Shown here one piece after another: positions 47,522 to 60,397 of a DNA stretch of 64,000 bases; position 1 is the first letter of the stretch, and every line of letters starts with the position of its first letter. The translations under genes were made by a program, and so were the position numbers. Source of the DNA: Lentisphaeria bacterium. Its GTDB lineage: Bacteria; Verrucomicrobiota; Lentisphaeria; Victivallales; Victivallaceae. The stretch is taken from the NCBI GenBank assembly GCA_017504435.1, contig JAFVRD010000053.1, positions 124,001 through 188,000 on the forward strand, in the 5' to 3' direction. The notes under the pieces were generated by a model. That model was not told the DNA's origin, ran no database searches, and saw only the letters and a program-made list of their open reading frames with translations.

Positions 47522-48511
47522 TTACCAACTTGTTGCCGGGGAACCGGTGTTTTTGATGTTGAACCCGGTCCATTGAACTGCCGCAGTACCGATACGCAAA
47601 TCGTAATAAGGCAGATCCGGTCTGGTGATCGTCCGGCTTTCCACGTGACCATCTACAAACAGGATATTCAGCTGTTTGCTCATATGGCGTGCATGCGGTT
47701 CGCCGATGTCATCTTTATTATCCCTGCGGGCATAAGTTGTGCTGTGATAGAGACGGCAGGCACCATGAAATCTGCCATCAGTATATCTTTTATAAGTATC
47801 CATCATGCAAAACATTTTTTGCGGGTGCAGAATATCGCCGGGTTTTAATGCTGTTTGGCTGGTCAGTCCTGTGACACCAGCAGCTTCATCCTCATGATCA
47901 AATCCTTTGGCGAATCGACCGGAGCCGCAGGTGGAATAAACATATCCGTAGCCGGTGTATGCAATATTTCCTTCGGCATTGGTATATTTTGCCTGATCCC
48001 GGTTGGAACCGTCACTGTCGGGAAAATCCACCTGCAGAGACGGACACTCAAATGTTTGCAAACTGACTCCGAGATATTGATTGAAATATCCGGTCCAACT
48101 TACTGACTTGTTAAGTTTTTTCTTGGACCAGCCGGTATACATATAAATAGGCAAATAACCATTTTCAGTGACGTAAATGTGAAATGCTCCTCCGAGCTGT
48201 TTCATGTTATTGGTACAGTTGGACATTTTCCCCCGGTCACGGGCCTGTTGCAATGCCGGCAGCAGTATTGCGGCAAGAATCGCGATAATCGCGATCACAA
48301 CCAGAAGTTCAATCAGCGTGAACGCTGATTGAGTGAAGATGTGAAGGTGTGAAGAGCATTTTTGACCGCTGTCAAAAATGCGTGAAGTGCGCCCTTGCGG
48401 GCGTAAGGATGTGTCGTTTTTATAAATTATTTTGAGGTAATAAAACGGCAAAACCCTAACTTTACAAGCCGCACTCACCAACAGTTCAATAAGGGTAAAA
48501 TGCTTTTTCAT
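47522..48511 (-). CDS. Pseudopilin-like exported protein with two prepilin motifs
   Basis: The 329 residues start [12 protein letters not shown], then a 51-residue insert, and then a second [18 protein letters not shown] (from residue 64) with [13 protein letters not shown]. The second copy is the complete prepilin methylation and helix motif; the first is truncated after ELLV. The remainder ([21 protein letters not shown] and [16 protein letters not shown]) matches the twin gene 48527-49387 and resembles DUF1559-type pseudopilins. Whichever signal is used, a type-II-secretion-like pathway would process it. The insert DNA contains hairpins and has no Shine-Dalgarno before its ATG. Confidence 0.7.
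48309..48404. repeat. Three consecutive hairpins inside the pseudopilin insert
   Basis: TCAATCAGCGT-GA-ACGCTGATTGA (48309-48332), GCATTTTTGAC-CGCT-GTCAAAAATGC (48356-48381) and CGCCC-TTGC-GGGCG (48390-48403), with GTGAAG at 48333, 48341, 48349 and 48382 between them. Confidence 0.9.
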
Positions 48512-48526
48512 AAAAACTTCGCTAAA

Positions 48527-49387
48527 TCAGTATGAAGCTCCCATACTCGGGAGCGAACCGGTGTTGTTCAGATCCCAGCCGGTCCACTGCACAGCGTGCG
48601 CACCTCTTCTGAGAGTGTAATACGGATTGGCAGGATATTCAATATCCCGGAACTCCACATGACCGTCACCGAATACAATATTCAATCCTTTGTTTTTCAG
48701 ATGCCGGGCATGCGGCATGCCGACTGCACCGTCGTATTTCGACTCTCCGGACGGATAAGAGGATTGTTCATAGTATTGGACCCGGTAAGAGCCGCGGACA
48801 GGTCCGTTTACACCCAAATGTTTGACATAAGTATCCATAGCAAAAAACATTTTGTCTGCATATCTGATGTCGGAGACTTTACGTACCGTCCGGTCAGTGG
48901 CGTGGTCTGTGCCGTTATACATGTATTCAACAGTTGTACCTCGGACATGTCTGCCGCTGCCGGCACATTCGTACGTATAGCCGTATCCGGTCCACAGCCG
49001 GCTTCTGTTGTATGTGGCGTGTTCTGCATTTTGATCAAAAAGCTTGTTATCACGCGAATAAGTTGCCTGCAGCGATGGGCAGACAAATGAATTCGGGGCT
49101 GCCAGTTTGGTGTCAACAAAGTACCCGGTCCAATCATAAGCTTTGTCGGCTCTGGCGCGGGTCGGTGCGACGATACCATAAGGGATGCAATGTTCAGTTT
49201 GCTGCATGTAGGTGTTGTATGCGGTTCCGAGCTGTTTCATGTGGCCGGTGCACTGCGATTGTTTACCGCGTTCGCGAGCCTGCTGCAATGCGGGCAGCAG
49301 CATGGCAGCAAGAATGGCGATGATCGCGATCACCACCAGCAGTTCGATAAGGGTGAACGAATGATGATATGATTTTGAAATGGTCAT
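48527..49387 (-). CDS. Pseudopilin-like exported protein (DUF1559-type)
   Basis: ATG 49387 follows GGGAGG; an ATG eight codons earlier is less well placed. The 286 residues carry a short positive leader, the prepilin motif [20 protein letters not shown] and [13 protein letters not shown], then a globular part with [13 protein letters not shown] and [20 protein letters not shown]. Such pseudopilins are processed by a prepilin peptidase and are abundant in Lentisphaerota, often near exported enzymes. The downstream pseudopilin, 15 bp away, is similar in sequence and length. The role is probably secretion, attachment or substrate display. Confidence 0.8.
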
Positions 49388-49429
49388 TTTGCAGTACCTC
49401 CCATGGAACACTGTTGATTATGTATATTA

Positions 49430-49577: not shown

Positions 49578-52175
49578 ATGAGCGAATTTTGGTATCATGC
49601 GCTGAATTATGCGGTTTATCCCCTGATCGCATTCGCGCTTTCGCTGTTTTTTACCGCCGTATGTATCCGTATATTGCCGAAACTGGGGTTTATAGATGCG
49701 CCCGGTGGCAGACATATCCACGCCCGGATCGTACCGCGCGGCGGCGGGATCGCCATCGTATTGTCGGTACTGGTCACGATGGTCGCTTATGCGGCGGCAG
49801 GCAGAAATGAGCTGGCGGTAACTTTGCTGAAGTCTGGAACTCTGCCGGGGGCATTGATCGTGATGACCGGAATAATTGATGACCGTATCGGCTTGAAATC
49901 GTATGTGAAGTTGATCGCTCAAATCATTGCAGCAGTGCTGATATGGTACGGACTCGACCGGGAATTGACGGTTTTCGGCTGGGTTCTGCCCTGGTATATT
50001 TCGCTGGCTGTGACGGTGCTGTGGGTGGTCGGTGTGATCAATGCATTCAACATGATCGACGGTCTTGACGGTCTGGCAGCCGGATTGGCAACTATTTCCG
50101 GGATCTGTCTGTCGGTGTGGTTCATCAGCCGTCAGAGTCAGATGGCGTTATTTATGCTTATATTTGTGGGGGCTTGTGCCGGATTTTTGCGGTATAATTT
50201 CTCTCCGGCAAAAATTTTTCTTGGCGATACCGGCAGTATGTTTCTCGGATTGTTTCTGGCGGTATCCGGAGCCGGAACGCTGGATTATACCGTAACTGCC
50301 ACGACGCTGCTGCTGCCGCCGCTGATGATCGGAGTGCCGATTTTTGACATGATGCTGGCGGTTTGGCGGCGCAGTATCCGTAAAAAAATCAACCCGGAAG
50401 CTGCCGGATTGATGGATGCTGACAGTGATCATTTGCACCATCGGCTCTTGCGCCGTACCCAAAGCCACTCGCGGGCGGCAATGATAATGTATGTGTTAAG
50501 TGCGGTATTTGCGTTGCTGGCGATAATTCTGCTGTTTGCACGTGACCGGTGTTCCGCAGTTGCTTTTGTGGTGTTGACTTTGACACTGTTGGTGATGCTG
50601 CGCAATTTTGCGGTGGTGGAATTGTATGATTCGGTGACATTTTTGCGTAAAAGTTTGCTATATTTCCGGAAAAGTCTGCTGTGCAGTGCGGTGCATCCGC
50701 TGGTGGATCTTGTGATGATCACTTTTTCAGCAACGATATTCTGTTTCAGCTTGTTGCACCGGTTTTCGCTGAATTTTATCCTTTTGGCAGTTTTGCCGGT
50801 GCTGCTGGTGCTGGCGGTAGGTTCATCCTATCGCATCTATTGGCTCCGGGCGGCGGTAAGAGACCGGCTGAGACTTTTTTTTATTACTCTGCTGGGAACC
50901 GGAGTTTCTGTAGCACTGATCTGCTGGATTTATTTGAAACGCAACGCTGAACCGGATATTACAAAATTTGTAATGGGGGCATTGCTGTTCATGCTGATGA
51001 CCGCTTTGCTGCTTTCATTTGAGCGATTTTTATTGCATTATATGGAAGGCTTCTGGCTCAGTCACTTTATGCTGGATAATTCCGGGGATAAAAAAGAACG
51101 GGTTTTACTGGCAGGCAGAGGTGTTATGCTGCGGCTCGGCGGGCTTTATTTCAATAACAGCCAGCGAACCAGCCGCAATTCGCAGGTCGTCGGTATCGTC
51201 GGAGAGGTTTCCGGTATGCCGCGTGAATTTGATACTCCTGTGCTCGGAAAAATTGAGGATTTGCCGGAAATTTACCGGTCAGTTCCTTTTGACCGGGTGC
51301 TGATAATTGATGCCGGATTGACTGCCGAAGAAAGAGAAAAGATCAGCTGTTTCTGCCGCGAAAGATGTTTGAGTTGTGCGGATTTTGTTGTTTCCGGGCC
51401 GGGATTTGACCGGAAAAATGAACAATCTATCCGCAGTTTTGAGTGCCCGCGTTTTGCATTGGAAATTACGGATATGGTGTTTTTTGCAGTAGTTTCTGCA
51501 ATATGCTCATTTTTTATGTTCAGTGAATTTGATCCGTGGTGCATCGCGGCGATGTTTGCCATGCCGGTGATATTTTTGGCAGCTTCCAAATTGTATCGGG
51601 TCAACTGGGGGCTTGTCGGTCTTTATGATCGTTGGCGTTTACTGCAATTCAGTTTGCTGGGGACGATTTTTGCGCAAATCCTGTGTGTTGTGATCATGGT
51701 GATAAGTAAAGAACGTGAATTCGATATGGATTTCGCTGTTGGTGCTCTTATATATATATTGGTATGCTGCGGGGGACTTCAGTTGTTCCGGCTGCTGCTG
51801 CATCCCGGCATTTTTGCGTGGTATAATTCATTCCGGAGTCGCGGCGAAAAAATTCTTATTCTGGGCGGAGGTTTGCATTGCCGTTTGTATTTGTTCCGGC
51901 TTATGATCGAACCGGGAAAAAATAAACCGGTTCCGATCGGCATAATTGATGATGATCCGGTGTTGCATGGTATGCTGTGTCACGGACTGCGGGTCCTGGG
52001 GGGCGTCGGGGATCTGGTTGATATCCGGAAGCGGTTCGCTTTTGACCGGATCGTGGTGACTCCGGCAGTCGTTTCCGGAAAAGTCCTCAATGAATTGTAC
52101 CGCTTTTGTGCGGATAATGATGTAAAATGCAGTACATTTTGCGTTTGTGAACGCAATGTGGATGAAAATCATTGA
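49578..52175 (+). CDS. WecA/MraY-type transferase fused to two membrane-Rossmann units
   Basis: The 865 residues have three parts. Residues 1-345 are a polyprenyl-phosphate sugar-1-phosphate transferase with IIDDRIGLKSYVK (about 100), NAFNMIDGLDGLAAG (about 155), FLGDTGSMFLG (about 215) and the WecA-type HLHHRLL (about 286). Then come two copies of a four-helix segment plus a Rossmann-like domain, the first with ERVLLAGRG (about 506) and the second with YRVNWGLVGLYDRWRLL and KILILGGG (about 757). These resemble the N-terminal CoA_binding_3 region of CapD/WbpM proteins but lack the epimerase domain. It probably starts a surface glycan on an undecaprenyl carrier. Confidence 0.85.
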   Translation: MSEFWYHALNYAVYPLIAFALSLFFTAVCIRILPKLGFIDAPGGRHIHARIVPRGGGIAIVLSVLVTMVAYAAAGRNELAVTLLKSGTLPGALIVMTGIIDDRIGLKSYVKLIAQIIAAVLIWYGLDRELTVFGWVLPWYISLAVTVLWVVGVINAFNMIDGLDGLAAGLATISGICLSVWFISRQSQMALFMLIFVGACAGFLRYNFSPAKIFLGDTGSMFLGLFLAVSGAGTLDYTVTATTLLLPPLMIGVPIFDMMLAVWRRSIRKKINPEAAGLMDADSDHLHHRLLRRTQSHSRAAMIMYVLSAVFALLAIILLFARDRCSAVAFVVLTLTLLVMLRNFAVVELYDSVTFLRKSLLYFRKSLLCSAVHPLVDLVMITFSATIFCFSLLHRFSLNFILLAVLPVLLVLAVGSSYRIYWLRAAVRDRLRLFFITLLGTGVSVALICWIYLKRNAEPDITKFVMGALLFMLMTALLLSFERFLLHYMEGFWLSHFMLDNSGDKKERVLLAGRGVMLRLGGLYFNNSQRTSRNSQVVGIVGEVSGMPREFDTPVLGKIEDLPEIYRSVPFDRVLIIDAGLTAEEREKISCFCRERCLSCADFVVSGPGFDRKNEQSIRSFECPRFALEITDMVFFAVVSAICSFFMFSEFDPWCIAAMFAMPVIFLAASKLYRVNWGLVGLYDRWRLLQFSLLGTIFAQILCVVIMVISKEREFDMDFAVGALIYILVCCGGLQLFRLLLHPGIFAWYNSFRSRGEKILILGGGLHCRLYLFRLMIEPGKNKPVPIGIIDDDPVLHGMLCHGLRVLGGVGDLVDIRKRFAFDRIVVTPAVVSGKVLNELYRFCADNDVKCSTFCVCERNVDENH

Positions 52176-52208
52176 TCCGGACTGCGGATTAAAACCGGAA
52201 AAAGGCTC

Positions 52209-52235
52209 GTAAAAACGGAAAAAGGCCGTTTTTAC
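52209..52235 (+). terminator. Terminator after the WecA-type fusion gene
   Basis: GTAAAAACGG (52209-52218) pairs with CCGTTTTTAC (52226-52235) around an A-rich loop. The 3' arm itself carries the T run. Confidence 0.7.
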
Positions 52236-52250
52236 CAAAAAAAAGCCAAA

Positions 52251-52293
52251 AAAACGCGATTTTTCAAGAAAAAAACTTGATAAATCGCGTTTT
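52251..52293. other. Strong hairpin overlapping the ribosomal promoter -35
   Basis: AAAACGCGATTT (52251-52262) pairs with AAATCGCGTTTT (52282-52293), with inner TCAAG/CTTGA. The 17-bp stem may end transcription coming from upstream and so insulate the ribosomal operon. Confidence 0.8.
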
Positions 52294-52305
52294 ACGTTGT
52301 ATGTT
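52277..52305 (+). promoter_or_regulatory. Probable promoter of the rplV-secY-cmk operon
   Basis: TTGATA (52277-52282), a 17-bp spacer and TATGTT (52300-52305). Transcription from here would give a leader of about 340 nt. Confidence 0.5.
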
Positions 52306-52316
52306 ATGTAATCTTC

Positions 52317-52653
52317 AATACGGGGAAGGGTTTTTTGTACCCGTTTGAGGGTTGCAAAGCACTGGAAACGTGTTCCAGTGGTGCGTTGCAGCCCGTATTC
52401 ATCGAAGATGCTGGAAATGAATACGGGTAACAGCGTATCGCGGGTGTCCGTGCTTCGCAGTAAGCAGCCGGAGTTTTCTGGCAGAGAGCCGTGTTCCGTC
52501 AGGAACGTGCGAAAACGGTTCCCTGCTGCAGAAAATGCCTCGGGAAGGGTGTTTTCAGTGAAACCGTCCGGTATGAAGTCGGGCCGTCCATACGGCGGAA
52601 ACGCTCCCGCCGGAACGATGCGGCTTGGAGAAAAAAACGAAAGAAAGCAGATT
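52317..52653 (+). ncRNA. Structured leader RNA before rplV
   Basis: No gene is recognised in this 337-nt stretch, although one frame happens to stay open into rplV. Segment A (AATACGGG, 52317-52324) and segment C (ATGAATACGGG, 52417-52427) can each pair with segment B (CCCGTATTCAT, 52392-52402), so the helices A-B and B-C exclude each other. Between A and B a hairpin CACTGGAA/TTCCAGTG (52360-52367/52373-52380) is extended by TGCAA/TTGCA. More short stems occur downstream (TGCTT/AAGCA, GTTCC/GGAAC, GGCGG/CCGCC). I infer a cis-acting regulator of the operon, perhaps bound by one of its ribosomal proteins. Confidence 0.5.
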
Positions 52654-52986
52654 ATGGAAGTAAGAGCTTTAACCAAAAACGTCCGGATCTCCCCGGAAAA
52701 GGCGCGTCATGTTTCGCGTCTTATTCAGGGTAAGAGCGTGGCTGAAGCACTGGCGATCGTCGATCTGAGTCCGCGCAAAGCGGCTGCTCTTATCGGCAAG
52801 ACCCTGCGCTCCGCTATTGCCAATGCCGAGAATAACTGTGACGTTAATCGCAAGGCGCTCACCGTAAAAGCGGCCTTGGTCAGTCCGGGACCGATCATTC
52901 GGCGGTTCCGCCCGAAAGCACGTGGCTCGGCGGGTCGTATCCGTAAACGTACCAGCCACATGGAAGTCATTTTGACTGACAACTGA
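52654..52986 (+). CDS. rplV: 50S ribosomal protein L22
   Basis: ATG 52654 gives a 110-residue L22 with [20 protein letters not shown] at the start and [20 protein letters not shown] near the C-terminus, the loop region lining the exit tunnel. The frame continues open upstream but that part has no L22 similarity. Unusually, rplV is the first gene of the operon: rpsS and rplB, normally directly upstream, are absent and must lie elsewhere. Translation starts without a strong Shine-Dalgarno, which fits control by the structured leader. Confidence 0.95.
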
Positions 52987-53000
52987 GGAAGGAACAGATC

Positions 53001-53708
53001 GTGGGACAGAAAGTTAATCCGATCGGTTTGAGAACCGCCTTGACCAAAGATTGGGATTCCCGTTGGTTCGCCGACAGAAAAATTGCCGGCAAAACCCAGT
53101 TCGGGGACTGGTTGCATGAAGACCAGGAAATCCGTAAATTCATCAAGGAAAAATTTGCAGCGGCGGCGATTGCCCGGGTTCGTATCGAGCGTTTCGCCAA
53201 TCGTGTGCGTGTCACCATCGTGTCTGCCCGTCCGGGCGTCCTGATCGGCAAAAAAGGTGCCGAGCTGGACAACCTGCGTGCAGCGGTGGCGAAGTTGGCT
53301 GCGGACAAAGAAGTTTTCGTGGAAGTCGCAGAAATGCGCCGTGCGGAAACCTGTGCGCAGTTGGTTGCTGAGAGCGTTGCTCAGCAGTTGGAACGTCGTA
53401 TCGGTTTCCGCCGTGCGATGAAGCGTGCCATCCAGTCCGCCATGGATATGGGTGCCGACGGCATCAAAATTAACTGCGCCGGACGTTTGGGCGGAGCTGA
53501 GCTCGCCCGCGAGGAGCAGTACAAAGAGGGCCGGGTTCCGCTTCACACATTGAAAGCGAAAATCGACTACGGTTTTGTTGAGGCAAACACGACTGCCGGT
53601 AAGATCGGCGTCAAAGTTTGGATTTGTCATAAGGACTCTGCGGAGGAAGAAGATTATGCCGTTAATGCCAAAAAGGGTAAAGTACAGAAAGGTTCAGCGC
53701 GGAAGTAA
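53001..53708 (+). CDS. rpsC: 30S ribosomal protein S3
   Basis: GTG 53001, behind GAGGAAGGAA, gives 235 residues. [20 protein letters not shown], the KH-type [17 protein letters not shown] and the C-terminal [15 protein letters not shown] are all classic S3 blocks; S3 lines the mRNA entry site and helps unwind mRNA. A lysine-rich tail ([17 protein letters not shown]) overlaps the start of rplP by about 53 bp, so the tail and L16 start share DNA in different frames. Confidence 0.96.
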
Positions 53709-54069
53709 CGCCGGACTCGCCACTACCAACAATAAGTTGGATTTCGGCGATTTTGCGTTGCAGACCCTGACCCGCGGGTACATCACCAATAATCAAATCG
53801 AGGCTGCTCGTGTGGCTATCAACCGTCACCTGAAACGTCGCGGCCGTGTGTGGATTCGTATGTTCCCCTTCCGCTCCTTCACCAAGAAGCCGTTGGAAGT
53901 CCGTATGGGAAAAGGAAAAGGTGCCGTTGAAGGCTGGGTCGCTCCGGTCCTGCCTGGACGCGTACTGTTTGAAATCTCCGGTTGCAGCGAGGCTGTGGCT
54001 AAAGAAGCTATGAGTCGCGCCGCCAACAAGCTGTGCGTGCGTTGCAAATTCCTGGCACGTGAAGTTTGA
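53656..54069 (+). CDS. rplP: 50S ribosomal protein L16
   Basis: ATG 53656 ([16 protein letters not shown]) follows GGAGG within the end of rpsC; ATG 53665 (MPKRVKY) is the alternative. The 137-residue length matches L16. Motifs such as [38 protein letters not shown] and the C-terminal [11 protein letters not shown] confirm it. L16 organises the A-site side of the peptidyl-transferase centre. The long overlap with rpsC should couple the translation of the two genes. Confidence 0.95.
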
Positions 54070-54082
54070 GTGAGGCCATAAG

Positions 54083-54286
54083 ATGAAGAATAAAGAAATT
54101 CGTGAAATGACCGATGCCGAATTGACTGCAAAAGTAGTCGATTTCAAGCGGGAAAAATTGAATCTGAAAATCCAGTCCCGTACCGGGCAGCTGGAAAAAA
54201 CCGCCCGTGTCCGTGAGGTTCGCCGCGACATTGCTCGCTGCCTGACCGAACTGGCTGCGCGTGCGGCTAACGCCGAGGTGAAGTAA
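54083..54286 (+). CDS. rpmC: 50S ribosomal protein L29
   Basis: This 67-residue protein forms the two-helix hairpin of L29: [20 protein letters not shown], then [20 protein letters not shown] and [13 protein letters not shown]. It sits near the tunnel exit beside L23. The gene is 13 bp after rplP and overlaps rpsQ by one base (TAATG). Order rplP-rpmC-rpsQ is the general bacterial one. Confidence 0.95.
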
Positions 54287-54561
54287 TGAGTGAGAATACT
54301 GTCTCCCGCGGCAACCGCAAAGAGCGTGTCGGCGTCGTCGTCAGTGACGTGCAGAACAAGACCATCATTGTGAAGGTCGAACGCCGTACGACTCATCCGT
54401 TGTACCGCAAAGTCGTCAAAGTCAGCAAAAATTTTGCTGTTCATGATGAGAATAACGTGGCGAAGAAAGGCGATACCGTCCGCATTGGCGAGACCCGTCC
54501 TCTGAGCCGTAACAAATGCTGGCGGCTGATCGAAATCATCAGCAACGCAGTGCAGGAGTAA
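54286..54561 (+). CDS. rpsQ: 30S ribosomal protein S17
   Basis: The 91-residue OB-fold protein shows [40 protein letters not shown] and [20 protein letters not shown], all standard S17 blocks. It binds 16S rRNA helices early in small-subunit assembly. Start overlaps the rpmC stop (TAATG) and the gene is followed 6 bp later by rplN. Confidence 0.95.
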
Positions 54562-54567
54562 CGAATA

Positions 54568-54933
54568 ATGATTCAGACGCAAACAATTCTTGAAGTCGCC
54601 GACAACAGCGGTGCCAAGTCCTTGCTGACGATTCAGGTTCTCGGACAGGCCAAAAAAATCGCCCATGTCGGTGATGTGGTCAGCGCTGCGGTTGAAACCG
54701 CGCTGCCCGACGGCACGGTCAAACGTCGTCAGCGGGTCCGGGCGGTTATCGTCCGTACCAAAGCTAAAATCCGTCGTCCCGATGGCTCTTATCTGAGTTT
54801 TGATGAGAATGCCGCCGTGGTTATCGACAAGGAAAACAATCCCATCGGGACCCGTATTTTCGGACCCGTTGCGCGCGAACTCCGCGAGAAGAACTTCATG
54901 AAGATCATCTCGCTTGCGCCGGAGGTGCTGTAA
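54568..54933 (+). CDS. rplN: 50S ribosomal protein L14
   Basis: The 121-residue protein begins [20 protein letters not shown], the L14 signature, and retains [39 protein letters not shown] and [21 protein letters not shown]14 lies at the subunit interface and forms bridge B8; it is also the binding site for the silencing factor RsfS. It ends in TAATG, overlapping rplX. Confidence 0.96.
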
Positions 54934-55247
54934 TGAATACGTTCCATGTCAAAAAAGGCGATAAAGTAGTGGTCAATGCCGGTAACTTCAAAGGTGCCGA
55001 AGCCACTGTCACTGCTATTCTGCCCGCCAAAGAGCGTGTCGTGCTTGAACTTGCCAGCGGCGAGAACAAACTCGGCAAACGCACTGTAAAAAAGAGCAAA
55101 GCCAACCCCAATGGCGGTTTGGTCGAGCGTGCTGTCTCAGTTGCCGTTTCCAACGTCGCATTGACCGAGGAATGCAAAAAGGCGAAACTTGAGGCCAAAA
55201 ACGCCCGCCGTGCCGCAAAAGCGGCGGCTAAAGCCAAGACGGAGTAA
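54933..55247 (+). CDS. rplX: 50S ribosomal protein L24
   Basis: The KOW motif sits at the N-terminus ([20 protein letters not shown]) and is followed by the conserved [15 protein letters not shown]. The 104 residues end with an alanine/lysine-rich helix ([17 protein letters not shown]) that is longer than in most L24 proteins and may be a lineage-specific rRNA-binding tail. L24 starts large-subunit assembly. It overlaps rplN and is followed 6 bp later by rplE. Confidence 0.93.
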
Positions 55248-55253
55248 TCGATT

Positions 55254-55790
55254 ATGCCCGATATGAAGAAAAAGTATAGCGAGGAAGTCCGTTCCGCGCT
55301 TGCCGAAAAACTCGGCATCAAAAATGTGATGCAGATTCCGAAAATCGAGAAGATCGTGATCTCCACCGGTATCGGATCTGATAAAGAGCGTGATGCATTT
55401 GCTGAAGCTCAGAAACACATTGCTGCGATGACCGGTCAGAAACCGATCGTCTGCAAAGCCCGTAAAAACGTGTCCAACTTCAAGCTGCGTGTTGGAATGC
55501 CGGTCGGTGTTATGGTCACCCTCCGCGGCAACCGGATGTATGAATTTCTGGATCGTTTTGTCCACAATGCCCTCCCGCGTGTGCGTGACTTCCGTGGTAT
55601 TCCGAAAAGCGGTTTCGACGGTGTCGGCAACTACAACATGGGTATTCAGGACGTGTCGGTTTTCACCGAGGTCGATGCTGACAAGCTGAAATATCCTCTC
55701 GGTGTGAATATCGCGATCGTCACCACCGCCAAAAATGACGAAGGTGCGCGTGAATTGCTTAAAATGATGGAAGTTCCCTTCGCGGAATAA
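55254..55790 (+). CDS. rplE: 50S ribosomal protein L5
   Basis: This 178-residue L5 shows IEKIVISTGIGSDKERDAF, AMTGQKPIVCKARKNVSNFK, LRVGMPVGVMVTLRGNRMYE and FRGIPKSGFDGVGNYNMGI. L5 binds 5S rRNA and contacts the P-site tRNA. Sequence and length are ordinary and the start context is acceptable. The gene precedes rpsN by 18 bp. Confidence 0.96.
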   Translation: MPDMKKKYSEEVRSALAEKLGIKNVMQIPKIEKIVISTGIGSDKERDAFAEAQKHIAAMTGQKPIVCKARKNVSNFKLRVGMPVGVMVTLRGNRMYEFLDRFVHNALPRVRDFRGIPKSGFDGVGNYNMGIQDVSVFTEVDADKLKYPLGVNIAIVTTAKNDEGARELLKMMEVPFAE

Positions 55791-55808
55791 TAAAAGGGGT
55801 AGAACAAA

Positions 55809-55994
55809 ATGGCTAAACTCAGTTTGATTGTCAAGGCGAACCGCCCCAACAAATTCGCGGTCCGGAACTACACCCGCTGCAAAGCGTGCGGTCGTCCCCG
55901 TGCCTATATCGGTAAATTTCAGCTCTGCCGTATCTGCTTCCGTGAAATGGCCTCCAAAGGTCTGATCCCGGGCGTGACCAAAGCGAGCTGGTAA
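55809..55994 (+). CDS. rpsN: 30S ribosomal protein S14, zinc-binding type
   Basis: A 61-residue protein with two CxxC pairs, [10 protein letters not shown] and [20 protein letters not shown]. It is the short, zinc-ribbon (C+) S14 rather than the roughly 100-residue zinc-free form. AAGGGG precedes the ATG. S14 is a late-assembling head protein. Together with the zinc form of L32 in this window, it suggests that the organism relies on zinc-dependent ribosomal proteins. Confidence 0.95.
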
Positions 55995-56019
55995 GTAAAT
56001 TGGTGAAAGGAAATATATT

Positions 56020-56415
56020 ATGAGTATGCAAGATCCGATCGCCGATATGCTGACCCGGATTCGCAATGCGGCTTCTGCAGGATTGGAAAAAGTTTCCATG
56101 CCGCTTTCCAAAGAGAAAAAGGCGATTGCAGAAGTGCTGAAAGAGGAAGGTTACCTCACTAAAGTCGGCATTGTCGGTGAAGGCGTAAAAAGCCAAATCG
56201 TCGTTGAGCTCAAATATGTGGGCGAAAAGGCGGTCATCGAAGGCATTGAACGCGTCAGTAAATCCTCCTGCCGTATCCATTGCGGCAGCCGTGAGATTCC
56301 GCGCGTCCGCAACGGTCTGGGAATCGTCGTTCTCTCCACCCCCAAGGGTATCATGAGCGGTCGTAAAGCTGCTCAGGAGAATGTCGGTGGCGAAATTCTC
56401 TGCCGTGTCTGGTAA
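56020..56415 (+). CDS. rpsH: 30S ribosomal protein S8
   Basis: The 131 residues start MSMQDPIADMLTRIRNAASA and end with GLGIVVLSTPKGIMSGRKAA followed by NVGGEILCRVW, the standard S8 N- and C-terminal signatures. In many bacteria S8 binds its own spc mRNA to limit operon expression; whether the rplE/rpsN junction here has such a site was not clear by eye. GAAAGGA precedes the ATG. Confidence 0.96.
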   Translation: MSMQDPIADMLTRIRNAASAGLEKVSMPLSKEKKAIAEVLKEEGYLTKVGIVGEGVKSQIVVELKYVGEKAVIEGIERVSKSSCRIHCGSREIPRVRNGLGIVVLSTPKGIMSGRKAAQENVGGEILCRVW

Positions 56416-56441
56416 TTAACACAAAGTGGGAAAAATAAATC

Positions 56442-56975
56442 ATGTCCCGTATCGGTAAAAAACCTGTAGATATTCCTGCCGGCGTCAAAGTGACGGTCGC
56501 TGACGGTGGAATCGTGGTCGAGGGCAAAAGCAAACTCTCGATGACTCTGCCTCCGCACGTTATTGCCGAAGTCAAGGAGAATCAGGTTCTGGTTTCCGCC
56601 GCTGACGAGAGCCGTGCCGCAAATGCGATGCACGGACTTGCCCGCAGCTTGATCCAGAACATGGTCATTGGTGTTTCTCAGGGCTTCAAAAAGGAGCTCC
56701 AGATCGTTGGTATCGGTTATAAAGCGGCAGTTGCCGGAAACAAATTGAATTTGTCTCTCGGTTACTCCCATCCGATCGAATTTATGATTCCGGAAGGTAT
56801 CAAAGTTACGGTCACTCCTGAGAACAAGATCCTCATTGAAGGATGCGACAAGCAGTTGGTCGGTGAGACCGCCGCTCAGATCCGCCGTTTCCGTAAACCT
56901 GAGCCGTACAAAGGCAAAGGTATCCGTTACGTCGATGAGCGCATTGTCCTTAAAGAAGGTAAATCCGTTGGTTGA
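56442..56975 (+). CDS. rplF: 50S ribosomal protein L6
   Basis: The 177-residue protein carries MSRIGKKPVDIPAGVKVTV, GVSQGFKKELQIVGIGYKAA and the C-terminal IRRFRKPEPYKGKGIRYVDE. These are the two repeated L6 domains, placed near the sarcin-ricin loop. Length and motifs are normal. It is followed by rplR after 28 bp. Confidence 0.96.
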   Translation: MSRIGKKPVDIPAGVKVTVADGGIVVEGKSKLSMTLPPHVIAEVKENQVLVSAADESRAANAMHGLARSLIQNMVIGVSQGFKKELQIVGIGYKAAVAGNKLNLSLGYSHPIEFMIPEGIKVTVTPENKILIEGCDKQLVGETAAQIRRFRKPEPYKGKGIRYVDERIVLKEGKSVG

Positions 56976-57003
56976 TAACCGGCGGTGTTAGGAGAATATA
57001 GAA

Positions 57004-57366
57004 ATGTCTGTATTGGATAAAAAATCGCAGCGCGCACGTCGTCATGCCCGGATCCGTAAAAAGATCTCCGGTACTGCAGACCGTCCCCGTTTCTGCGTCA
57101 GCATCACCGACAGCAATATCTATTGCCAGTTCATTGATGATGTCAACGGCAAAACGCTGGCGTCAGTGTCCACGCTTTCCGCTGCTTTCAAAGCTGAAAA
57201 CGGCAAAGCGAATATGGCTGGTGCCGCACTGCTCGGCAAAATGGCTGCGGAAGCGGCGAAATCCGTGAGTATTTCCGAAGTGGTCTTTGACCGTTCCGGC
57301 TATCAGTTCCACGGTCGTGTCAAAGCGATCGCCGAAGCTGCCCGCGAACAGGGTCTCAAGTTCTAA
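57004..57366 (+). CDS. rplR: 50S ribosomal protein L18
   Basis: The 120 residues contain RRHARIRKKISGTADRPRFC, SITDSNIYCQFIDDVNGKTL and VVFDRSGYQFHGRVKAIAEA with AREQGLKF at the end, all typical L18. It binds 5S rRNA with L5. AGGAGAATATAGAA precedes the ATG. The neighbour rpsE begins 10 bp later. Confidence 0.95.
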   Translation: MSVLDKKSQRARRHARIRKKISGTADRPRFCVSITDSNIYCQFIDDVNGKTLASVSTLSAAFKAENGKANMAGAALLGKMAAEAAKSVSISEVVFDRSGYQFHGRVKAIAEAAREQGLKF

Positions 57367-57376
57367 GGAGCGAACA

Positions 57377-57895
57377 ATGGGTAAACGTGAAAATTTCGGC
57401 GAACCCGCAGTCGTCAGCGAATTTGACGAAAGCGTGATCGCTATCAACCGCAGCGCGAAAGTCGTCAAAGGCGGCAAAAACTTCAGTTTCGGCGCGCTGG
57501 TCGTGGTCGGTGACCGCAATGGCCGGGTCGGTTACGGTTACGGAAAAGCGAACGAAGTCAGCGATGCCATCCGCAAAGGCAGCGAAGCTGCCCGTCGCAA
57601 TCTGGTGCGTATTCCGATGAATGGTCAGACTCTTCCGCACGAAATCGAAGTCAAATTCGGTGGTGCGCGGGTACTGCTCCGTCCGGCATCAGCCGGTACC
57701 GGTTTGATCGCCGGTGGTGCGGTCCGTTCCATTCTGGAACTTGGCGGTGTCAAAGACGTGTTGGCTAAATCTCTGGGCGCAGCGAATGCTTCCAACGTGA
57801 CCAAAGCCACGTTCAAAGCTATCGCCGGTCTTTCCACCCGCAGCGAGGTCATGGCCCGTCGCGGATTGGCGAAAGAAGCCGCAGAAAGCAACTAA
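57377..57895 (+). CDS. rpsE: 30S ribosomal protein S5
   Basis: ATG 57377 follows AAGGAG and gives 172 residues; an open frame upstream belongs to rplR DNA. The double-stranded RNA-binding region RSAKVVKGGKNFSFGALVVV and the C-terminal RSILELGGVKDVLAKSLGAA are diagnostic. S5 takes part in decoding accuracy and mRNA unwinding. Immediately downstream one expects rpmD (L30), but only 15 bp separate it from rplO, so L30 is missing here. Confidence 0.95.
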   Translation: MGKRENFGEPAVVSEFDESVIAINRSAKVVKGGKNFSFGALVVVGDRNGRVGYGYGKANEVSDAIRKGSEAARRNLVRIPMNGQTLPHEIEVKFGGARVLLRPASAGTGLIAGGAVRSILELGGVKDVLAKSLGAANASNVTKATFKAIAGLSTRSEVMARRGLAKEAAESN

Positions 57896-57910
57896 TCGAG
57901 GGATTGAAAG

Positions 57911-58357
57911 ATGAAACTTCATGATATGAGTCCGACTCCGGGTTCCCGCAAGCCGCGCAAACGCGTGGGCCGCGGTGACAGTTCTGGTCTCGGCAAAACT
58001 GCCGGTCGTGGTGAAAAAGGACAGAAGTCCCGTTCCGGCGCGAAGATCCGTCCCTTCTTCGAGGGTGGTCAGATTCCGCTGTTCCGTCGTTTGCCGAAAC
58101 GCGGTTTCAAAAACGCCGACCGTATTGTCTATGCTCTGGTCAACCTGAGTGTTCTGGAAAGCAATTTCCAGGCTGGTGATGTGGTTGATCTGGCGAGCTT
58201 GCACGAGAAAAAACTTCTCGGCAAAGGCGATACGATCATCAAAGTTCTTGCCAATGGCGAGATCAGCAAAGCACTGACTGTCAAAGCTCAGAAATTCTCC
58301 GCGGCTGCCGCGGCGAAGATCCAGGCTGTCGGCGGTACAGTGGAAATCGTTGACTGA
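57911..58357 (+). CDS. rplO: 50S ribosomal protein L15
   Basis: A 148-residue protein with MKLHDMSPTPGSRKPRKRVG, the glycine-rich GRGDSSGLGKTAGRGEKGQK and RPFFEGGQIPLFRRLPKRGF, characteristic of L15. L15 is a late-assembling large-subunit protein. It sits 15 bp after rpsE and 14 bp before secY, as in the general spc operon. Confidence 0.95.
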   Translation: MKLHDMSPTPGSRKPRKRVGRGDSSGLGKTAGRGEKGQKSRSGAKIRPFFEGGQIPLFRRLPKRGFKNADRIVYALVNLSVLESNFQAGDVVDLASLHEKKLLGKGDTIIKVLANGEISKALTVKAQKFSAAAAAKIQAVGGTVEIVD

Positions 58358-58371
58358 AAAGGACATCAAAT

Positions 58372-59742
58372 ATGTGGCGTGCGTTATTGAATGCTTGGAA
58401 AGTCAAGGAGCTGCGCAGCAGACTTCTGTTCACAGCCTTGATTATTGTGCTGGTGCGTTTTGCCAGCAGTATTCCGTGCCCCGGAGTTGATCCGACCGCA
58501 CTCAAAGGGTTCATCGACAGCGTCACACAAAACAGCAGCAGCGGCGGCGGTGTAATGGCGATGATCGACCTGTTTTCCGGTGGAGCCATGACGCATTTTG
58601 CGTTAGGTGCGCTGGGCATCATGCCTTACATCACCGCTTCGATCATCATGCAGCTGCTGGTACCGGTGATCCCTGCGTTGGAAAAAATGCAGCGTGAGGG
58701 AGAATCCGGTCGCGGCAAAATCACCCAGTATACCCGTTATCTGACTTTGGTCGTTTGCGCGGTGCAGGGTGTGATGGTGGCGATGGCAATGATCAATCCG
58801 TCCCGGATCGGTCTGCCTGAGCCGATGATGCCGCTTTTCATCGGTAATCCGGTGCTTTTCATAATAGTCAACGTTTTTGTGCTGACCTGCACAACGATGG
58901 TTTTTATGTGGCTCGGTGAACAGATCACGGAGCGTGGTATCGGTAACGGTGTATCGTTGATCATTACCATTGGTATTGTTTCGCGTATGCCGGAAGCGGT
59001 GTTGCAATTGATCAAAATGACTTCTGACGGCGGATCACTGCGTTTGGTGCATCTGCTGTTGTTGGTTGCGGTGTTTTTTGTCGTTACTGCGGCGACGATC
59101 CTGCTTTCGCAGGGTTATCGCCGGATTCCGATTCAGATGGTTCGCAAAAGCAGTGTCGGCAGAATGACCGATGGTTCGACCTATATGCCGCTGAAGGTTA
59201 ATTTTGCCAACGTTATGCCGATTATTTTTGCCGGTGCATTGATGATGTTCCCGTCAATGATATTTTCTTCATTGGCCCAACGTCCTGATGCGGCGAAGAT
59301 CTGGACGACACTGGCGATAGCGTTTCAGCATGATAAACTTACCTATGCGGTGGTTTATGGTCTGCTGATCATATTGTTCAGTTTCTTCTGGGTCGCCAAT
59401 CAATTCAATCCGTTGCAGATCGCAGATAATCTGAAAAAGGAAGGCGCGTATATTCCAGGAATCAGTCCTGGACAGCCGACTGCAGATTTTCTGGATTCCG
59501 CGATGACCCGGGTGACTACCGGCGGAGCAGTATTTCTGCTTGTGCTGGCGTTGTTCCCGATGTTCCTTTACAATACTTTCGGAATACCGTTTATGGTGGC
59601 GCAGTTTTTCGGAGGTACCAGTTTGCTCATTATGGTTGGTGTGGTACTGGACACGATGAGTCAATTGGAATCTCATTTAACGATGCGTCATTATGATGGA
59701 TTCCTGAAAAGCGGACGGCTGCGCAGCCGTTCCAATAACTGA
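58372..59742 (+). CDS. secY: Protein translocase subunit SecY
   Basis: The 456-residue, ten-helix channel subunit has the plug and helix-2 block SSGGGVMAMIDLFSGGAMTH followed by GIMPYITASIIMQLL, ITERGIGNGVSLIIT, and ENLKKEGAYIPGISPG-like IADNLKKEGAYIPGISPG with GQPTADFLD. These are highly conserved SecY segments. It forms the SecYEG channel in the cytoplasmic membrane and follows rplO closely. Genes usually placed after it (adk, map, infA, rpmJ) are replaced by cmk. Confidence 0.96.
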   Translation: MWRALLNAWKVKELRSRLLFTALIIVLVRFASSIPCPGVDPTALKGFIDSVTQNSSSGGGVMAMIDLFSGGAMTHFALGALGIMPYITASIIMQLLVPVIPALEKMQREGESGRGKITQYTRYLTLVVCAVQGVMVAMAMINPSRIGLPEPMMPLFIGNPVLFIIVNVFVLTCTTMVFMWLGEQITERGIGNGVSLIITIGIVSRMPEAVLQLIKMTSDGGSLRLVHLLLLVAVFFVVTAATILLSQGYRRIPIQMVRKSSVGRMTDGSTYMPLKVNFANVMPIIFAGALMMFPSMIFSSLAQRPDAAKIWTTLAIAFQHDKLTYAVVYGLLIILFSFFWVANQFNPLQIADNLKKEGAYIPGISPGQPTADFLDSAMTRVTTGGAVFLLVLALFPMFLYNTFGIPFMVAQFFGGTSLLIMVGVVLDTMSQLESHLTMRHYDGFLKSGRLRSRSNN

Positions 59743-59758
59743 GCGTAACGGTATTTGC

Positions 59759-60397
59759 ATGAGTACTGTAGTTGCTATCGACGGGCCGGCCGGAGCCGGA
59801 AAAAGCACGGTCGCCCGCCGTTTGGCAGAACGCTTGGGTTATGCGTATATAAATACCGGAAGTCTTTACCGTGCATTAGCGTTTGCGGCAAAGAGTTCCG
59901 GTATTGCGTTTTCTGAAATCGATGCCGGATTTCTCAACCGTTGTGAACTGGAATTCCGGGGGGCAGATCTTTATCTCAACGGGTGTAAACTGGGAGATGA
60001 ATTGCGGGCTCCGGAATGTGCACAGGGGGCGAGTGTGATCTCCGGCAATCCGCTGGTACGGGATTATCTGATGCCGGTGCAGCGGAACTCTGCAAACGGT
60101 CAATGGATCGTGATGGAGGGGCGTGATATCGGGACGGTGGTATTTCCGGATGCCGAAAAAAAATTTTTTGTGACAGCCTCTCCTGAAGAACGTGCCCGCC
60201 GTCGTATGGCGCAAAGTTCTGAAGTCGCAGCAGATGCGACATTTGAATCTATTTTGGCAGACATTATTGCCCGTGATGAGCGTGATTCCAAACGGGCGAT
60301 CGCTCCCTTGAAACAGGCTGCCGATGCGGTGTTGGTGGATACGACCGGCATGAGCATTGACGAAGTGGTCGAATATATTGCGGAAATGTGCCGTTAA
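59759..60397 (+). CDS. cmk: Cytidylate kinase
   Basis: ATG 59759 opens a 212-residue P-loop kinase: VAIDGPAGAGKSTVARRLAE (Walker A), YINTGSLYRALAFAAK for the CMP-binding region and WIVMEGRDIGTVVFPDAEKK. These fit bacterial Cmk, which phosphorylates CMP and dCMP. No strong ribosome-binding site was found. It is unusual to see cmk next to secY, and its presence suggests a lineage-specific end to the operon. Confidence 0.93.
   Translation: MSTVVAIDGPAGAGKSTVARRLAERLGYAYINTGSLYRALAFAAKSSGIAFSEIDAGFLNRCELEFRGADLYLNGCKLGDELRAPECAQGASVISGNPLVRDYLMPVQRNSANGQWIVMEGRDIGTVVFPDAEKKFFVTASPEERARRRMAQSSEVAADATFESILADIIARDERDSKRAIAPLKQAADAVLVDTTGMSIDEVVEYIAEMCR

Follow-up and report, generated by a model that had tools for sequence, protein, structure and literature searches.

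In a group of gut bacteria, a conserved structured RNA before rplV probably acts as a feedback switch on the making of ribosome parts

The DNA analysed here (64,000 nucleotides in all, hereafter the window) is contained in a 2.26 Mb assembly whose close relatives are Lentisphaeria of the Victivallaceae, many of them obtained from rumen, caecum, colon or faeces. It carries a long ribosomal-protein operon headed by rplV (uL22), confirming an earlier observation that the operon starts without its usual rpsS and rplB (Table 1). The genes from rpsC to the cmk-like gene were named by reading the translations of their ORFs, without a scan of family libraries; rpmD (uL30) is missing between rpsE and rplO (window 57287-58357). 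A cluster of the order fusA-rpsJ-rplC-rplD-rplW-rplB-rpsS was found on another contig of the same genome, and rpsS is separated from rplV in relatives across the order (37 kb apart in one single-contig genome). An S10 operon that is split throughout the order, with rpsJ to rpsS located elsewhere behind fusA, thus accounts for the absence of rpsS and rplB before rplV, and the distal half therefore needs a promoter and a control of its own.

The promoter proposed upstream of the leader was recovered and is kept in close relatives (one occurrence of the pattern vs 0.3 expected); transcription is expected to start near 52312. An 18-nt inverted repeat (window 52251-52293, 94% complementary) overlaps the -35 element, has similar counterparts in the nearest relatives, and may serve as an operator or as the end of the upstream transcript.

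Table 1. Coordinates of the promoter, the leader RNA elements and the genes of the rplV operon in the window.
Feature	Position	Strand	Details	Basis
Sigma-70-like promoter	52277-52305	+	TTGATA-17-TATGTT	9/12 matches; hexamers same before leaders of 11 same-genus genomes
5' hairpin P0	52312-52351	+	holds segment A (CUUCAA.ACGGG / CCCGUUUGAGG)	local folding; alignment inspection
Outer helix and B-C hairpin	52382-52437	+	outer helix 52382-52388 with 52431-52437, around B-C hairpin 52392-52402 with 52417-52427	covariation
Core element	52486-52521	+	P1 52486-52492 with 52515-52521; P2 hairpin 52493-52506; bulge GUGCGAAA(A) 52507-52515	covariation
Hairpin P3	52528-52559	+	hexaloop CGGGAA 52541-52546, U.G-closed	hexaloop register test
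3' double hairpin P4	52581-52626	+	52581-52587 with 52620-52626; inner 52594-52598 with 52607-52611	covariation
rplV (uL22)	52654-52986	+	first gene of the operon	
Remaining operon	53001-60397	+	rpsC, rplP, rpmC, rpsQ, rplN, rplX, rplE, rpsN, rpsH, rplF, rplR, rpsE, rplO, secY, cmk-like	ORF recognition
rplX (uL24)	54933-55247	+	within the rplV operon	

The 349-nt leader folds far better than its shuffles (z -4.9; z -5.5 for the first 129 nt), while leaving the rplV start region unsequestered in the predicted fold. A search of Rfam 15 returned no family at gathering score for the leader, and a permissive scan gave only chance-level matches to unrelated families. The initial description of a structured leader heading a ribosomal-protein operon and matching no named family was upheld, and related genomes were found to conserve this leader. 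The same description had placed two competing helices within it, and segments A (52317-52324, AATACGGG), B (52392-52402, CCCGTATTCAT) and C (52417-52427, ATGAATACGGG) were indeed found at the places and with the complementarity claimed. The co-variation of A, B and C in related genomes, which the first-pass annotation had named as a check, was scored on 12 same-genus leaders aligned over their full length and compared with shuffles. The set comprising the B-C hairpin, the outer helix and the 3' helices was paired in 95% of cells, with 40 double-sided changes against a shuffle mean of 13.6, and slid versions of the set reached at most 46% of cells. Among its members, the B-C helix alone was paired in 93% of cells (with seven of its 11 pairs changed on both sides), the outer helix in 98.8%, and the two P4 helices in 100% and 87%; the P4 sequence is largely replaced in L004-L007. 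In contrast, the A-B helix was paired in 62.5% of cells, showed no double-sided change and stood little above its own shuffles.

An attenuator or riboswitch-like device in which A-B and B-C pairing exclude each other is therefore scarcely credible, in spite of the complementarity of the three segments in this genome: of the two helices only B-C is kept in the 11 relatives, B-C is present in the predicted minimum of both folds (349 nt and first 129 nt), and no sense-strand intrinsic terminator was found in 52170-52700. The switch was accordingly rejected as a conserved mechanism by covariation, and with it the claim of mutually exclusive helices. Since B-C covaries, A-B is unconserved and A lies in a local 5' hairpin, B-C is best regarded as a constitutive arm instead of one of two alternatives. 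The arms of that 5' hairpin, P0, appear to change together in relatives (CUUC/GAAG, CUCC/GGAG) on inspection of the alignment. The hairpin nested between A and B (about 52360-52380) rests to some extent on an insertion peculiar to this genome. The B-C loop (52403-52416) holds a GAUGCUG that is invariant in the 12 closest leaders, and P4 ends 27 nt before the rplV start.

The conserved core of the leader is found downstream of A, B and C, at window 52486-52559. In this core, helix P1 closes on hairpin P2 and a 3' bulge, GUGCGAAAA, and a hairpin with a YGGGAA hexaloop comes next. Each of the 26 genus leaders examined, even where divergence prevented alignment, carries GUGCGAA (30 copies vs 2.1 expected) followed by GGGAAG; GUGCGAAAA forms a bulge or loop closed by P1, usually with P2 on its 5' side. 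The sequence of P1 changes completely among leaders and its pairing persists: in leaders with entirely different sequences, the closing of GUGCGAAAA by P1 scored 17.8, the null standing at 11.65 (sd 0.64). When the core stems were scored on ten leaders, 99% of cells were paired, with 17 double-sided changes compared with 5.4 in shuffles, and slid controls reached at most 56%. GGGAA in turn sits in an NGGGAA hexaloop, often U.G-closed, with a mean stem of 4.35 in this register; when the flanks were shuffled the mean was 1.88, and none of 300 shuffles exceeded 2.44. GGGAAG repeats up to three times per leader. On these comparative grounds, the leader is judged to be a real, evolutionarily conserved folded RNA. 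In two genus leaders (L014:1110-1509 and L016:1122-1509) the GUGCGAAAAA bulge element occurs twice, nested.

For searches of further genomes, a structure model (R1) was built on only ten leaders, the window sequence among them, and is consequently narrow and misses divergent leaders. R1 gave a single match in the window (E 1.5e-8, for a sequence that is one of the ten used in model building) and recovered a leader outside its training set (L079, E 1.5e-4). In 157 kb of sequence, nine of the 11 matches listed fell at the correct site, among them weak matches to further leaders and to three coding copies in sister genera. Over 137 genomes of the order, ten significant matches were obtained, one per genome and each an rplV leader. 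A look for other sites within one genome showed a single occurrence of the 14-letter core, and the paired pattern gave one rplV site plus chance matches per genome; the element is thus present at about one site per genome, before rplV. It was not found in the rpsJ-rpsS half-operon on L044.

Family genomes outside the genus are mostly without the leader; there, rplV directly adjoins a gene that encodes a coiled-coil protein. This gene is conserved and encodes 270-410 aa (L077, L078, L082, L085, L086, L088, L089, L092, L093, L109 and L025); a Pfam search of the protein gave a coiled-coil match below threshold and nothing else. Its codons at about -490 to -580 from rplV are GTG CGA AAA ... CGG GAA GAA, and P1 and P2 re-form around these codons, so that the coding element has the order P1-P2-GUGCGAAAA-P1'-GGGAAG about 500 nt before rplV (in L078, for example, GCUGGCCGG-c-GUCCC..GGGAC-a-GUGCGAGAAA-CCGGUCAGC-GGGAAG). 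Nine such sister-genus coding sequences scored 30.1, compared with a mean of 15.0 and a maximum of 22.7 under synonymous-codon resampling, which keeps the protein sequence (0 of 1000 resamplings reached the observed score); these genomes are related, and hence do not amount to nine independent trials. Taken genome by genome, the observed score was found in less than 1% of its own resamplings for four of the nine and in about 2% for one more. Individual R1 matches to the coding copies upstream of rplV in L077, L088 and L092 were weak (E about 0.5-0.8), and the GTG CGA part is missing in the more distant relatives L026-L029. GGGAAG alone was discarded as an RNA signal in the upstream gene, where its many copies are explained largely by Gly-Lys codons.

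The shared letters occupy homologous codons (GTG CGA ... CGG GAA GAA), as would be expected if the leader were a decaying remnant of this coiled-coil gene and the letters functionless leftovers of VR...REEQLL. Such an origin is most improbable, given that the stems are compensatory both in the leaders and in the coding sequence. Furthermore, L023/L080, of the present genus, has both the gene, devoid of the VR codons, and a leader carrying the element, which argues that the leader is not simply a gene remnant.

A conserved fold whose stems show compensatory change, placed ahead of a ribosomal operon, is what a ribosomal-protein autoregulatory leader presents, and of the two roles first suggested, autoregulatory leader or attenuator, the former remains the best reading and the latter falls. 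With moderate confidence, the leader is interpreted from its sequence and covariation as a cis-acting RNA of the rplV-rpsC-...-secY operon, the core of which would be bound by a protein that lowers expression. The ligand would be a free ribosomal protein that binds the P1/P2/GUGCGAAAA core together with the YGGGAA hairpin and, when rRNA is scarce, represses the operon. As the leader is devoid of a terminator, control is probably exerted at translation or mRNA decay, and in the sister genera it may involve coupling to translation of the upstream gene. The open rplV start region in the predicted fold and the lack of the element in the rpsJ-rpsS half-operon on L044 speak against the feedback reading.

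The core could alternatively be an mRNA processing or decay site, such as an RNase III or RNase E entry point or a stabilising structure, without being a regulatory site for a ribosomal protein. Long covarying helices near the 5' end and the occurrence of the element within a coding sequence would suit a processing site equally well, although the invariant unpaired GUGCGAAAA and YGGGAA suggest recognition of loop letters and not of duplex alone, making this alternative unlikely. The element is roughly single-copy, stands before a ribosomal operon and holds invariant unpaired letters in variable stems, and a protein site is therefore likelier than a function of the duplex only. Recognition by a small molecule or a non-ribosomal regulator, for instance a CsrA-like protein that reads GGA in hairpin loops, would account for the GGA of the YGGGAA hexaloops and for the presence of up to three GGGAAG per leader. 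It is nevertheless considered very unlikely, since genomes carry about one such site each, ahead of a ribosomal operon, no Rfam family matches, and the invariant GUGCGAAAA bulge is not known to be part of CsrA-like sites.

With respect to which ribosomal protein would bind the core, the rRNA of relatives was compared; the assemblies of the genus itself lack the 5' part of 23S rRNA. In the 16S+23S+5S rRNA of one relative (4665 nt), the single NGGRAA hexaloop hairpin is 23S H19, UGAGU[UGGAAA]GCUCA, and GCGAAAA stands directly 3' of hairpin H20, 36 nt beyond the H19 hexaloop hairpin; this region belongs to 23S domain I. Both motifs fell within 60 nt in 30 of 1500 dinucleotide rRNA shuffles (p about 0.02, with the hexaloop definition loosened by one letter after the rRNA had been seen). 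The H19/H20 motif pair was present in two of the relatives tested (G036 and G051); under the strict definition it was absent from E. coli and four others, although most of the relatives have a GAAAA-rich stretch on the 3' side of H20. The order and spacing of the rRNA motifs differ from those of the leader, and the resemblance is moderate; R1 did not find H20 when run on rRNA, and whole-leader local sequence alignments to rRNA were not significant. Mimicry of the 23S rRNA element GUGCGAAUGCUGACAU was rejected on account of its absence from relatives. Mimicry of 23S helix 7 or the E-site region was also rejected, as the whole-leader alignments were not significant and this phylum has other letters at the E site.

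The likeness of both motifs to helices 18-20 in domain I of 23S rRNA, where the 23S fragment competing for uL4 is presumably located and uL24 presumably binds nearby, makes uL4 or uL24 the leading guess for the ligand. With no H20 match by R1 and the 5' part of the genus 23S missing, this is held as a guess and not as a finding. Either uL4, acting in trans since its gene belongs to the half of the S10 operon that was split off, or uL24 (rplX) from the rplV operon itself would fill the role. A more specific proposal, possible though rather unlikely, is that a mimic of helices 18-20 of 23S rRNA survived the operon split in the distal half and would let uL4, the product of the other half, control this half in trans and balance the two. 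Sister genera would carry the mimic within codons of an unrelated upstream gene, and this genus within a non-coding leader.

Known systems offer partial parallels. The uL4 protein of E. coli recognises the S10 leader as well as a fragment of 23S rRNA that competes with it, and conservation of the E. coli site is limited even across the gamma-proteobacteria (PMC10931766). That leader is likewise a long structured 5' UTR before genes of the S10 cluster; it precedes rpsJ-rplC-rplD with rplD in the operon, whereas the present leader precedes rplV after the split, lies in an operon that excludes rplD (rpsJ to rpsS being on another contig) and lacks a terminator, with no sequence or architecture shown to be shared. 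In the present operon, rplN to secY correspond to the spc operon, in which feedback is exerted by a protein of the same operon, uS8; the site for uS8 is found where rplE begins (PMC10931766) and is set apart by this location from an element before rplV. The Rfam families of ribosomal-protein leaders are of the same kind, namely conserved cis RNAs before ribosomal genes, and none of them matches. The leader would add an unnamed family, with a clear core that lends itself to binding tests, from a phylum that has received little study. If this reading is true, it shows how the balance of ribosomal proteins survives breakage of a conserved operon, and that a regulatory RNA element can be embedded in a coding gene in one genus and form a non-coding leader in another.

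Two minor observations concern gene content. A second, divergent rplV adjoins rpsS in one assembly with 6% contamination (G046:C6:5420-6016) and probably lies on a foreign contig. In the window itself, two neighbouring genes for prepilin-like proteins occupy 47522-49411 on the minus strand.
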